A stretch of 64,000 bases of DNA from positions 2,232,001-2,296,000 of the forward strand of contig JAGFXX010000001.1 of assembly GCA_017599285.1 (NCBI GenBank). Reading direction: 5' to 3'. This document shows positions 32,417 through 36,169 of the stretch, piece by piece. Below the pieces are notes generated by a model that was not told the DNA's origin, did no database searches, and was given only the letters and a program-made list of their open reading frames with translations. This DNA comes from Cereibacter azotoformans. GTDB taxonomy: Bacteria; Pseudomonadota; Alphaproteobacteria; Rhodobacterales; Rhodobacteraceae. The position numbers were made by a program, and so were the translations under genes. The stretch's first letter is position 1; each line of letters begins with the position of its first letter.

Positions 32417-33325
32417 TCAGGACGCCGTGGCGAGGCTGCCCCTAGGCAGCGCAAAGCCGCGCAGGAATTCGTCGCGCTCCATCGGGCGCTTGCCCTCGCG
32501 CTGCGCGAGCGTGATCTCGACCGCGCCCGAGCCGCAGGCGATCACGAGCCCCTCGAGCAGCTCGCCCGGAGCGCCCTGCCCCTCGGCCAGCCGGCAGCGC
32601 AAGAGCTTGACCCGCTCGCCGCCCAGCATCGTCCAGGCGCCGGGGAATGGCGAGAGGCCACGGATCTGCCGATCGATCTCCGCTGCCGGGCGACTCCAGT
32701 CGATGCCCGCCTCGGCCTTGGCGATCTTCTCGGCATAGGTGACGCCCTCTTCGGGCTGCGGCTGCGGCACGAGATCGTCGAGCGCCTCGATCGCGCCGAG
32801 GATCAGCCGCGCCCCCATGCCGGACAGCCGGTCATGCAGATCCTGCACCGTGTCTTCGGCGCCGATGTGGGTCTTTTCGCACATCAGCACCGGCCCGGTG
32901 TCGAGCCCGGCCTCCATCTGCATGATGCAGATGCCGGTCTCATTGTCCCCCGCAAGGATCGCGCGGTGGATCGGCGCCGCCCCCCGCCAGCGCGGCAGCA
33001 GCGAGGCATGGATGTTCAGGCAGCCGCGGTCCGGCGCATCGAGGATCGGTTGCGGCAGGATCAGCCCGTAGGCCACGACCACCGCCACCTCGGCCCCGAG
33101 CGCCGCGAACTCGGCCTGCACCTCGGGCGTGCGCAGCGATTTCGGGTGACGGACCGGCAGGCCCAGCTCTTCGGCACGGGCCTGCACCGGCGTCGGCCGG
33201 TCCTTCTTCCCCCGCCCCGCGGGCCGGGGCGGCTGGCAATAGACGCAGACGACCTCGTGATGGGCGTGCAGCGCCTCGAGCACGGGAACCGAGAAGTCGG
33301 GCGAGCCCATGAAGACCACGCGCAT
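32417..33325 (-). CDS. fmt: Methionyl-tRNA formyltransferase
   Basis: The 302-residue protein has [20 protein letters not shown], the folate/catalytic block [29 protein letters not shown] with the catalytic His and Asn region, and the C-terminal OB-type domain. It formylates initiator Met-tRNA. It lies four bases downstream of the third deformylase paralogue and continues the def-def-def-fmt operon. Confidence 0.97.
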
Positions 33326-33328
33326 GGC

Positions 33329-33832
33329 TCAGCCCACCCGGCGCAGGTATTTCTCGGACTTCGCGATCACCATCTTCCGCTTCAGGGCCGAAAGATGGTC
33401 GATGTAGAGCTTGCCGTTCAGGTGGTCGATCTGGTGCTGAACCGAGGTCGCCCAGATGTCCACGAAGTCGCGTTCTTCCATCTCGCCGGCCGGGTTCAGG
33501 AAGCGCACGGTCACGGCGCGCGGGCGCGAGATCACGGCCGTGGCGCCGGGCAGGTTCGGGCTGCCCTCCTCATGCTCGCGAAACTGGCCCGAGGCATGGA
33601 GGATCTCGGGGTTGGCGAGCCGGATCGCCTTGCCGCGGCTGTCCGAGCAATCGACCACGGCGAGCCTCAGCATCACCCCGATCTGCGGCCCGGCAAGACC
33701 GTAGCCCGGCATCGCGTCCATCGTCTCGACCATGTCGTCCCAGATCGCGCGGATCTCGTCGGTGACGGCGCCAACCGGCGCGGCGGCCGTCTTCAGCCGC
33801 TTGTCGGGATACATCACGAAGGGGCGGATCAT
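33329..33832 (-). CDS. Peptide deformylase-like protein lacking key active-site residues
   Basis: The 167-residue protein aligns along its length with peptide deformylase but two of three motifs are altered. Motif I is GYGLAGPQ (43-50). Motif II reads E89-G-S-P-N93 in place of EGCLS, so the metal-binding cysteine is lost. Motif III reads H133-Q-I-D-H137 in place of HEIDH, so the catalytic glutamate is glutamine. It is therefore unlikely to be an active deformylase. The ATG at 33832 overlaps the second paralogue's stop (ATGA). It could be a regulator, an N-terminal-peptide binder or a decaying copy. Confidence 0.93.
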   Translation of the reverse strand: MIRPFVMYPDKRLKTAAAPVGAVTDEIRAIWDDMVETMDAMPGYGLAGPQIGVMLRLAVVDCSDSRGKAIRLANPEILHASGQFREHEEGSPNLPGATAVISRPRAVTVRFLNPAGEMEERDFVDIWATSVQHQIDHLNGKLYIDHLSALKRKMVIAKSEKYLRRVG

Positions 33833-34320
33833 GGCTGCATCTCCCGCAGGGCCGCGTCGCGCGCCGCGGGCGCTGCGCGGTCGAGGATCACGATCCCGTC
33901 CAGATGGTCGATCTCGTGCTGGGCGCAGATGGCGGCAAAGCCCGAGAGCAGCGCCTCCTGCTCGGCGCCGAAAAGGCTCGTCCAGCGCAGGCGGATCTCG
34001 GGCGCGCGGGCGACGGTCAGGCGGGGGCCGGCGATCGAGAGGCAACCTTCCGGCCCCTCCACGCGCTCCCCGGACATCCAGAGGATCTCGGGATTGACGA
34101 AGACCTGCGGCTCGGCCGGCCCGTCCTTCCAGACCGCATCCATCACGAAGAGCCGCACCATCTCGCCCACCTGCGGCGCCGCAAGCCCGCGGCCCTGCGC
34201 GTGATACATGGTGGCCAGCATGTCCGACGCCAGCTCTTCCAGCGCCGGCCCCGGCACGGCGGGGGCGCAGGGCTGCGACAGGCGCGGGTCTGGCCAGCGC
34301 AGGATCGGACGGACCGCCAT
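33829..34320 (-). CDS. Peptide deformylase (second paralogue)
   Basis: The 163-residue protein keeps all catalytic motifs: GRGLAAPQ (43-50), E91-G-C93-L-S95 and H135-E136-I-D-H139, so it should bind Fe2+ or Zn2+ and be active. It differs from the first copy by a shorter C-terminus and a GRG in motif I, which places it nearer the def2-type of bacterial paralogues. Its start shares one base with the stop of the first def (TGATG). It probably removes N-formyl groups from nascent chains. Confidence 0.93.
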   Translation of the reverse strand: MAVRPILRWPDPRLSQPCAPAVPGPALEELASDMLATMYHAQGRGLAAPQVGEMVRLFVMDAVWKDGPAEPQVFVNPEILWMSGERVEGPEGCLSIAGPRLTVARAPEIRLRWTSLFGAEQEALLSGFAAICAQHEIDHLDGIVILDRAAPAARDAALREMQP

Positions 34321-34853
34321 CAGGCCTTCTGCACCAGACCCGAGGCCTGGGCCCGCTTGAACTTCTCCATCTTGCGCGTGATCATCTGCCGCTTGAGGGG
34401 GCGCAGGTAGTCGATGAAGAGCTTGCCGTCGAGATGGTCGATCTCGTGCTGCACGCAGGTGGCCCAGAGGCCCGAGAACTGCTCCTCCTCCTCGCGGCCG
34501 TCGATGCCGGTCCAGCGGACCTTGACCTCGGCCGGGCGCTCCACCTCGGCGAAGACGTTGGGCAGCGAGAGGCAGCCCTCCTCGTAGGTCGAGAGATCCT
34601 CCGACGCCCAGACGACCTGCGGATTGATCAACGCGATCGGGCGCCGCGGCGCTTCGGGCTGCTTGTTGCAGTCCATCACCACGAGCCGCCGCATCACGCC
34701 CACCTGAGGCGCCGCAAGCCCGATGCCCGGCGCGTCATACATCGTGGCCAGCATGTCATCGGCCAGGCGGCGCAGATCGTCCGTGATCTCGGCGACGGGG
34801 TCGCAGATCTTCTTCAGGCGCGGGTCCGGGTGGATCAGGATGGAGCGTATCAT
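34320..34853 (-). CDS. def: Peptide deformylase (canonical copy)
   Basis: The 177-residue protein has canonical motif I GIGLAAPQ (43-50), motif II E92-G-C94-L-S96 and motif III H136-E137-I-D-H140, with both histidines and the cysteine as metal ligands and Glu as base. It removes formyl from initiator Met of nascent polypeptides. It starts MIRSILIHPDPRLKKICDPV and is the first gene of the def-def-def'-fmt set. It is divergent from the PatB-type gene. Confidence 0.97.
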   Translation of the reverse strand: MIRSILIHPDPRLKKICDPVAEITDDLRRLADDMLATMYDAPGIGLAAPQVGVMRRLVVMDCNKQPEAPRRPIALINPQVVWASEDLSTYEEGCLSLPNVFAEVERPAEVKVRWTGIDGREEEEQFSGLWATCVQHEIDHLDGKLFIDYLRPLKRQMITRKMEKFKRAQASGLVQKA

Positions 34854-34996: not shown

Positions 34997-36169
34997 ATGA
35001 ACTTCGACGAGCGCATCGACCGCCGCGGCTCTCACTCGGTCAAGTGGGACATGATGGAGACCCTCTACGGCGTGCCCGCCTCGACCGGCATCGCCATGTG
35101 GGTGGCCGACATGGAGTTCCGGCCGCCGGCCGCCATCCAGAAGGCCGTCGAAGGCATGGCGGCGCATGGTCTCTACGGCTACTTCGGCGACGACCGCGAC
35201 TATCTGGCCGCGATCCGCTGGTGGATGGAGCACCGCCACGGCTGGGAAGTGGCGCCCGAATGGATCTTCACCGTCCACGGCCTCGTGAACGGCACCGCCC
35301 TCTGCGTCGATGCCTTCACCCAGCCGGGGGATGGGGTGGTGCTGATGACGCCGGTGTATCACGCCTTCTCGCGCGTGATCCGCGCGGCGGGGCGCGACGT
35401 GGTCGAATGCCGGCTGGCGCAGGACAATGGCCGCTATGTCATGGACCTTGACGCCTGGGACGCGCAGATGACGGGGCGCGAGCGGATGCTCATCCTCTGT
35501 TCGCCGCACAATCCCGGCGGCCGGGTCTGGACCGTCGAGGAACTGCGGCAGGTCGCCGATTTCTGCGTGCGGCACGACCTGATCCTCGTGTCGGACGAGA
35601 TCCACCACGATCTCGTCTATCCCGGTCAGCGCCATACGGTGATGCCGCTGGCCGCGCCCGAGGTGCTCGAGCGGCTGGTCATGCTCACGGCCGGGACCAA
35701 GACCTTCAACATCGCCGGCGCCCATTGCGGCAATGTCATCATTCCCGACCCCACGCTCCGCGCCACCATGGCCCGCAGGATCGGGGCGCTCGGGATCTCG
35801 CCGAACTCGTTCGGGCTGTTCATGGTGTCGGCCGGCTATTCGCCGGAAGGCGCGGAATGGGCCGATGCGCTGATGCGCTATCTCGAGGGCAACCGCGCGC
35901 TGTTCGACGAGCGGATCAACCGGATCCCCGGCCTGCGCTCGATGCCGCTCGAGGCGACCTATCTGTCCTGGGTCGATTTCGCCGGAACCGGCATGAGCGC
36001 CGAAGAGATCCACTGTCGCGTGCAGTCCGAGGCGCAGATCGCCGCCAACCACGGCGCAACCTTCGGCGCGGGCGGCGAGAGCTTCTTTCGCTTCAACATC
36101 GCGGCCCCGCGAGCGCAGGTCGAAGAGGCGCTGGAGAGGCTCTCCCGTGCCTTCGCCGACCTGCAATGA
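34997..36169 (+). CDS. MalY/PatB-type PLP-dependent C-S lyase (cystathionine beta-lyase)
   Basis: The 390-residue aminotransferase-fold protein begins MNFDERIDRRGSHSVKWDMME and has MWVADMEFRPP, LILCSPHNPGGRVW, LVSDEIHHDLVYPG, the PLP lysine K235 in AGTKTFNIAGAHCGN and the C-terminal RFNIAAPR. It probably cleaves cystathionine or other S-alkyl cysteines. The fusion with a regulatory MalY role is known only in enterics. AGGAG precedes the ATG. It ends where the convergent gene ends. Confidence 0.92.
   Translation: MNFDERIDRRGSHSVKWDMMETLYGVPASTGIAMWVADMEFRPPAAIQKAVEGMAAHGLYGYFGDDRDYLAAIRWWMEHRHGWEVAPEWIFTVHGLVNGTALCVDAFTQPGDGVVLMTPVYHAFSRVIRAAGRDVVECRLAQDNGRYVMDLDAWDAQMTGRERMLILCSPHNPGGRVWTVEELRQVADFCVRHDLILVSDEIHHDLVYPGQRHTVMPLAAPEVLERLVMLTAGTKTFNIAGAHCGNVIIPDPTLRATMARRIGALGISPNSFGLFMVSAGYSPEGAEWADALMRYLEGNRALFDERINRIPGLRSMPLEATYLSWVDFAGTGMSAEEIHCRVQSEAQIAANHGATFGAGGESFFRFNIAAPRAQVEEALERLSRAFADLQ

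Follow-up and report, generated by a model that had tools for sequence, protein, structure and literature searches.

Clustered and inactive peptide deformylases

Most bacterial proteins are first processed by deformylation, a step that is also a drug target, and the roles of Cys90, the backbone NH of Leu91 and Glu133 in the mechanism of the E. coli peptide deformylase (PDF) are established. The PDF metal is coordinated by one Cys and two His residues, as described in the available portion of PMC8712518. PDF genes are clustered in 98.1% of Rhodobacterales reference species, with three of them grouped in 62.5% of those clustered-PDF genomes, and the rationale for this arrangement was called elusive in the accessible parts of the study by Lamberioux et al. 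(2025; PMC12690207). Type 3 PDFs, a term for weakly active or inactive forms with changes in motifs I and II (PMC12690207), are described for S. aureus, S. pneumoniae, archaea and trypanosomatids in the accessible text of PMC12690207 and PMC5591237.

Judged against these partial texts, the Rhodobacterales cluster and the inactive type 3 PDFs are known, while the substitution signature of the third clustered copy (def3) and an apparent division of catalysis and ribosome docking among the three copies are new. Neither a uniform Ser/Pro/Gln member nor a split between catalysis and docking helix was found in the main-text parts of PMC12690207, and neither the def3 signature nor the division of functions turned up in the literature searched, including the available portions of PMC8712518, PMC5591237, PMC3101196, PMC4964514, PMC3130931 and PMC3024229. 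A literature search for "HQIDH" together with peptide deformylase returned no paper.

Three deformylase genes ahead of fmt

The window, that is, the whole analysed stretch of 64,000 nucleotides from Cereibacter azotoformans, carries def1, def2, def3 and then fmt, in this order on the minus strand. The 177-aa product of def1 (34320-34853) is a canonical class I PDF whose motifs are intact and whose C-terminal helix is basic, and that of def2 (33829-34320, 163 aa) has intact catalytic motifs, lacks the basic ribosome-docking residues and is the fastest evolving of the three. def3 (33329-33832, 167 aa) reads as a pseudo-deformylase, in which Cys90, Leu91, Cys129 and Glu133 (E. coli numbering) are replaced by Ser, Pro, Ser and Gln, respectively, and both metal His are kept. 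The methionyl-tRNA formyltransferase gene fmt (32417-33325) matches Formyl_trans_N and Formyl_trans_C above the cut-offs.

A first-pass annotation made from the letters alone had placed three tandem deformylase genes ahead of fmt, and both the PF01327 matches and the coordinates bear it out. Its residues were also correct, with EGCLS and HEIDH in def1 and def2 and EGSPN and HQIDH in def3, where motif I reads GYGLAGPQ. As for the operon coupling it described, the ATGA overlap of four bases between def2 and def3 is present, but the def3 stop codon is separated from the ATG of fmt by three bases (33326-33328) instead of four; def1 and def2 share a single base. A class I/II aminotransferase gene (PF00155) lies at 34997-36169 on the plus strand, divergent from def1.

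A 4-base overlap ahead of def3 recurs in 71 of 85 def2-def3 junctions and in 48 of 92 def1-def3 junctions among the relatives, and fmt lies downstream of def3 in all 167 loci where both genes were read, with a median gap of 3 bases and a gap of 20 bases or less in only 102 of them. Adjacent PDF genes on one strand beside fmt are what marks the Rhodobacterales PDF cluster, and the locus belongs to the same gene cluster as that treated in the accessible parts of PMC12690207.

Exactly these three genes match PF01327 in the C. azotoformans genome (assembly 84% complete). def3 is a member of the peptide deformylase family by its PF01327 score (133.2 bits, cut-off 22.8), and it reaches 124.8 bits against TIGR00079 (cut-off 103.95), a model that matches all 66 def3 orthologues described below at E 0.001 or better. 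Since TIGR00079 accepts def3, an automatic pipeline would label it as peptide deformylase, and counts of active PDFs in the Rhodobacterales may be too high because standard models give def3-type proteins this name.

A fixed signature in the third copy

A protein search of 80 Rhodobacteraceae genomes from 79 genera recovered def3 in 66 genomes, a single PDF match that was read as def1 in 11, and no match in three. Third PDF matches, counted as def2, were present in 36 of the 66 genomes (35 of them were read) and in none of the 11, that is, only alongside def3 (Fisher p 0.0006, without kinship correction). All 66 def3 orthologues carry Ser90, Pro91, Ser129, His132, Gln133 and His136, and Cys90 and Glu133 were found in 69/69 def1 and 35/35 def2 proteins of the same 80 genomes. 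The replacement of both the metal-ligand Cys and the catalytic Glu in the third copy, recognized in the first-pass annotation for the one locus, is thus fixed, and no orthologue keeps Cys and Glu (0/66, and 0/174 distinct proteins in the enlarged set below).

The enlarged set adds named genomes, for example Rhodobacter viridis, Paracoccus, Celeribacter and Roseovarius, and an order-level sample. The six-position signature occurs without exception in its 174 distinct def3 proteins, and Cys90/Glu133 in 180/180 def1 and 83/83 def2. Copies were sorted by BLAST score, with motif I additionally for def2, and not by the residues under test; the 174 count each distinct sequence once and cover PDFs of 120-260 aa. 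Scans or rankings favouring the def3 model contributed 105 of the 174, and the other 69 (66 from the family sample plus three) agree fully. In the order-level sample, 119 of 121 genomes had a match of more than 240 bits to the def3 model, the remaining two reaching at most about 190, and loci were taken from the best 30 of the 119; the scan of named genomes used four patterns, two of them containing the def3 signature.

Motif I is largely kept in def3, and motifs II and III are changed. EGCLS with its metal-ligand Cys is absent and Ser90-Pro91 stands in 174/174, encoded in the window by codon 91 (AGC, 33560-33562, minus strand) and codon 92 (CCG, 33557-33559, minus strand). HExxH with its catalytic Glu is likewise absent, HQxDH being present in 174/174, with Gln133 encoded by codon 134 (CAG, 33431-33433, minus strand). 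Ser90 has an AGY codon in 123 of the 174 and a TCN codon in the other 51, so the residue has survived switches of codon family. Sequencing error as the source of the def3 residues is ruled out by identical residues in 66/66 orthologues from 66 genomes and 65 genera. The first-pass annotation did not mention the fixed replacement of Leu91 by Pro and of Cys129 by Ser, nor the basic helix, which def3 retains and def2 has lost.

Outside the Rhodobacteraceae, a class-level sample of 289 genomes gave only four whose score against the def3 model exceeded 190 bits, all from the family itself, and the 26 best non-family loci all read Cys/His/Glu/His. One viral scan for phage relatives returned two loci, on two IMG/VR contigs, whose PDFs are related to the query and have EGCLS and HEIDH intact.

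Evolutionary constraint and origin

Within the genus, in 10 non-independent pairs drawn from five genomes, dN/dS estimated by a counting method was 0.08-0.13 for def3, 0.08-0.27 for def1, 0.09-0.21 for fmt and 0.10-0.47 for def2. Mean pairwise identity across 159 genomes was 0.685 for def3, 0.695 for def1 and 0.697 for fmt; def2 reached 0.517 in the 72 genomes having all four genes. In its slow rate of evolution def3 is close to def1 and fmt, and this dead-looking copy is better conserved than def2, which looks alive. Selection guards def3 about as strictly as the working enzyme, so def3 probably has a job of its own, which agrees with the earlier proposal that the inactive copy is preserved for a role of its own.

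A functionless duplicate in decay is very improbable. It would be in keeping with the lack of def3 in 11 of the 77 family genomes having any PDF, probably through several losses, but one fixed signature runs through the whole family, and a dN/dS of about 0.1, not near 1 in any of the 10 pairs, together with an identity close to that of def1 and fmt rejects it. The def3 substitutions are neither error nor decay.

In a tree built without columns 90-92 and 133, the def3 sequences group in a single clade (support 100) whose long stem arises among the family's PDFs (92), and in a second tree, built without the catalytic columns and the helix, def3 stands beside def1 (87). The placement of def2 differs, being nested among def1 in the first tree and outside the def1-def3 branch in the second. 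Mapping the presence of def3 on a def1+fmt tree calls for at least seven changes, four of them forced by well-supported branches, with deep branches weak; some early family branches may never have had def3.

Predicted fold and pocket

The AlphaFold2 model of def3 (mean pLDDT 97.2) has the fold of the E. coli PDF (TM 0.95 and 1.2 A to 1bsj). Gly43, Gly45, Gln50, Glu88, His132, Asp135 and His136 are retained in 174/174 def3 proteins. In the pocket, Leu91 and Cys129 are replaced by Pro and Ser, respectively, in 174/174, Gly89 by Ala in 161/174 and the Ser at position 92 by Asn in most, and position 97 is Ser in 126/174, where def1 has Tyr or Phe. The residue just before E87 is His in 165/174 def3 and Tyr in 169/180 def1, and an Arg two residues ahead of this His (165/174) is a further mark of def3; a one-residue insertion lies beside E. 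coli residues 86/87, and column 86 is not a clean match.

Position 97 of def1 is Tyr in 138 and Phe in 42 of the 180 proteins, the def1 of the window having Phe and its def2 Arg. In V. cholerae, an Arg97 to Tyr change is given as the cause of lowered actinonin susceptibility in the available part of PMC12690207.

Across a chosen list of pocket columns, the mean entropy of def3 is 0.43 against 0.98 in the rest of the protein (permutation p 0.0008), and against 0.24 for the same columns of def1, so the def3 pocket is the more variable of the two. A pocket that is partly re-made and more variable than that of def1 means that unchanged formyl-Met binding is not to be assumed, and its higher entropy speaks against a fully kept ligand site.

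These features bear on two alternatives. The first is an altered enzyme, which would hold its metal through the two His and another group and carry out slow or different chemistry, perhaps as a thiol-free, oxidation-proof form. Cys90 and Cys129 are both Ser, His132, His136, Gln50 and Glu88 are invariant, the pocket is more conserved than the rest of the protein, and the His before E87 replaces the Tyr of def1, all of which suit such an enzyme, as do the proposed stress-active type 3 PDFs (accessible part of PMC12690207) and the low activity of the T. brucei type 3 PDF (available portions of PMC12690207 and PMC5591237). We nevertheless judge it quite unlikely: the general base, the NH of residue 91 and the Cys ligand are jointly gone, which is most of the mechanism known for the E. 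coli enzyme, and the "HQIDH" search brought up no paper. The second is a reader of formyl-Met N-termini acting off the ribosome, which would shield or mark formylated chains in the manner of an N-degron recognin. The Glu to Gln change in HExxH is a classical way to retain binding and stop hydrolysis, the His pair and Gln50 are kept, and def3 mostly adjoins fmt, the source of fMet-tRNA; the pocket and backbone-contact changes at 89, 91, 129 and 97 weigh against such a reader and leave it decidedly doubtful.

The C-terminal docking helix

In the E. coli PDF, L149, K150, R153 and K157 of the C-terminal helix contact uL22, and K160 and R163 contact 23S rRNA (available part of PMC12690207). The counterpart in def3, residues 149-166 (33335-33388, minus strand), is a helix in the predicted model and carries Leu149, Lys150, Met153, Lys157, Lys160 and Arg163 in the window. 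Positions 150, 157 and 160 are each basic in 174/174 def3 and in 179, 179 and 180 of 180 def1, compared with just 3, 4 and 8 of 83 def2, and position 151 is also basic in 174/174 def3. The subset that was not chosen by the def3 model gives the same picture, with 69/69 def3 basic at all three positions, 78, 78 and 79 of 79 def1, and 2/38 def2 at each. Taken over the tail, the net charge has a median of +7 in def3, +8 in def1 and -1 in def2.

Sequence comparison thus suggests that def1 combines catalysis with the basic helix, that def2 has only the former and that def3 has only the latter. The putative docking helix of def3 is only partly identical to that of E. coli, since position 153 is mostly Met (158/174, as in 144/180 def1) and position 163 varies. 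By a by-eye alignment, the uL22 residue of this genome at the place of E. coli Glu52, the partner of PDF Arg153, is presumably Gln. Together with Met153 in def1 and def3, this Gln would be a possible matched change on both sides.

PDF and methionine aminopeptidase (MAP) compete for this docking site on the ribosome, where PDF stays about 15 ms per visit (accessible part of PMC8712518). The available text of PMC5591237 cites the helix as crucial in vivo and also cites its removal with activity intact. The helix may also be retained for folding, pointing back to the N-terminal domain, which counts against a docking role.

If the helix were kept merely as part of the fold, def3 could be a partner protein that complexes def1 (or fmt) and activates, stabilizes or restrains it. 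Dead paralogues sometimes act on active partners, the genes are tightly coupled (4-base overlaps ahead of def3, short def3-fmt gap), and Trp31, Met41, Ala58, Ser63, Arg66 and Ala73, which lie off the pocket list, are near-fixed in def3 only (166-173 of 174). To our knowledge, PDFs are generally monomers. The 11 family genomes that keep def1 without def3 indicate that def1 is not everywhere dependent on it, and a partner role leaves the loss of the helix in def2 and its retention in def3 unexplained, so we regard such a complex as unlikely.

A candidate ribosome-docked pseudo-deformylase

The kept docking helix, absent from the first-pass annotation, is the strongest clue to the role of def3. 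Its residues and predicted structure point to a ribosome-docked pseudo-deformylase that would work without deformylating, a reading whose chances we put at about even. def3 would have arisen early in the Rhodobacteraceae, when the PDF of the family was duplicated in tandem. Its chemistry would have gone with the metal-ligand Cys, the backbone NH of residue 91 and the Glu that acts as general base, while the fold, the two metal-binding His and the basic helix with which the E. coli PDF docks beside the ribosomal exit tunnel stayed in place. def3 would then bind the same uL22/23S site as def1 and MAP and alter the timing or the choice of nascent chains for N-terminal processing, either by competition with def1 and MAP or by holding the N-terminus. 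The data show that the catalytic residues are gone from the def3 sequence, that the signature is fixed and the gene under purifying selection, that a PDF fold is predicted, that the helix is conserved and that the gene overlaps its neighbours; that the protein is inactive in vitro, binds ribosomes and influences how N-termini are processed is what we infer. The occurrence of a third PDF only beside def3 and the basic helix residues of 8/9 substituted PDFs elsewhere (see below) also favour this reading, and the ninth, a Tyr90 copy without these residues, speaks against it. The absence of def3 from 11 of 77 family genomes means that def3 is dispensable, which counts against this role.

A dead-looking deformylase constrained about as strongly as a live one would suggest a layer of tunnel-exit regulation presumably missing from E. 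coli, which has a single PDF, and the three-way split of catalysis and docking would serve as a natural experiment.

Substituted deformylases elsewhere in the Alphaproteobacteria

From 22 other alphaproteobacterial genomes, chosen for at least two PDF matches, 58 PDFs were read, with the catalytic sets (positions 90/132/133/136) C/H/E/H in 49, S/H/E/Q in six, S/H/E/Y in two and Y/H/E/H in one. The eight Ser90 copies, having Gln or Tyr at 136, keep Glu133, have lost His136 and Gln50, and are all basic at 150, 157 and 160; the Tyr90 copy lacks the three basic residues. Outside the family, these residues are found in 8/9 substituted PDFs versus 22/49 intact ones, the latter 22 being the best-scoring copy of each genome. 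Six or seven of the Ser90 copies were compared through 20 surrounding ORFs, one of which is the PDF itself, and showed no shared gene context; neither fmt nor def was among the neighbours searched. A single origin of def3 and both other substituted groups was not rejected (AU p 0.398), nor was one of the two non-def3 groups alone (AU p 0.494).

A wider conjecture, tentative and rather unlikely as it stands, is that Alphaproteobacteria, perhaps repeatedly, made a non-enzymatic exit-tunnel deformylase that gates N-terminal processing. In the Rhodobacteraceae, def1 would dock and cut, def2 only cut and def3 only dock; def3 might hold on to formyl-Met N-termini and thereby leave some proteins formylated or delay their processing.

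Comparison with known systems

Like type 3 PDFs, whose mark is substituted conserved motifs, def3 has altered catalytic motifs (II and III, with motif I largely kept), and in bacteria such proteins stand beside an active PDF, as def3 does. By description, it differs from them in its kept motif I, closeness to class I PDFs, basic helix and place in the def-fmt cluster. The Ser90/Gln136 and Ser90/Tyr136 copies of other Alphaproteobacteria share with def3 the exchange of the metal-ligand Cys for Ser and the basic residues at 150, 157 and 160, but Glu133 is still present in them and His136 and Gln50 are gone, the reverse of def3. With the E. coli PDF (1bs4, 1bsj), def3 has in common the predicted fold, both metal His, Gln50, Glu88 and a helix with basic residues at 150, 157 and 160, while Cys90, Leu91, Cys129 and Glu133 are replaced and Arg153 is Met in most.
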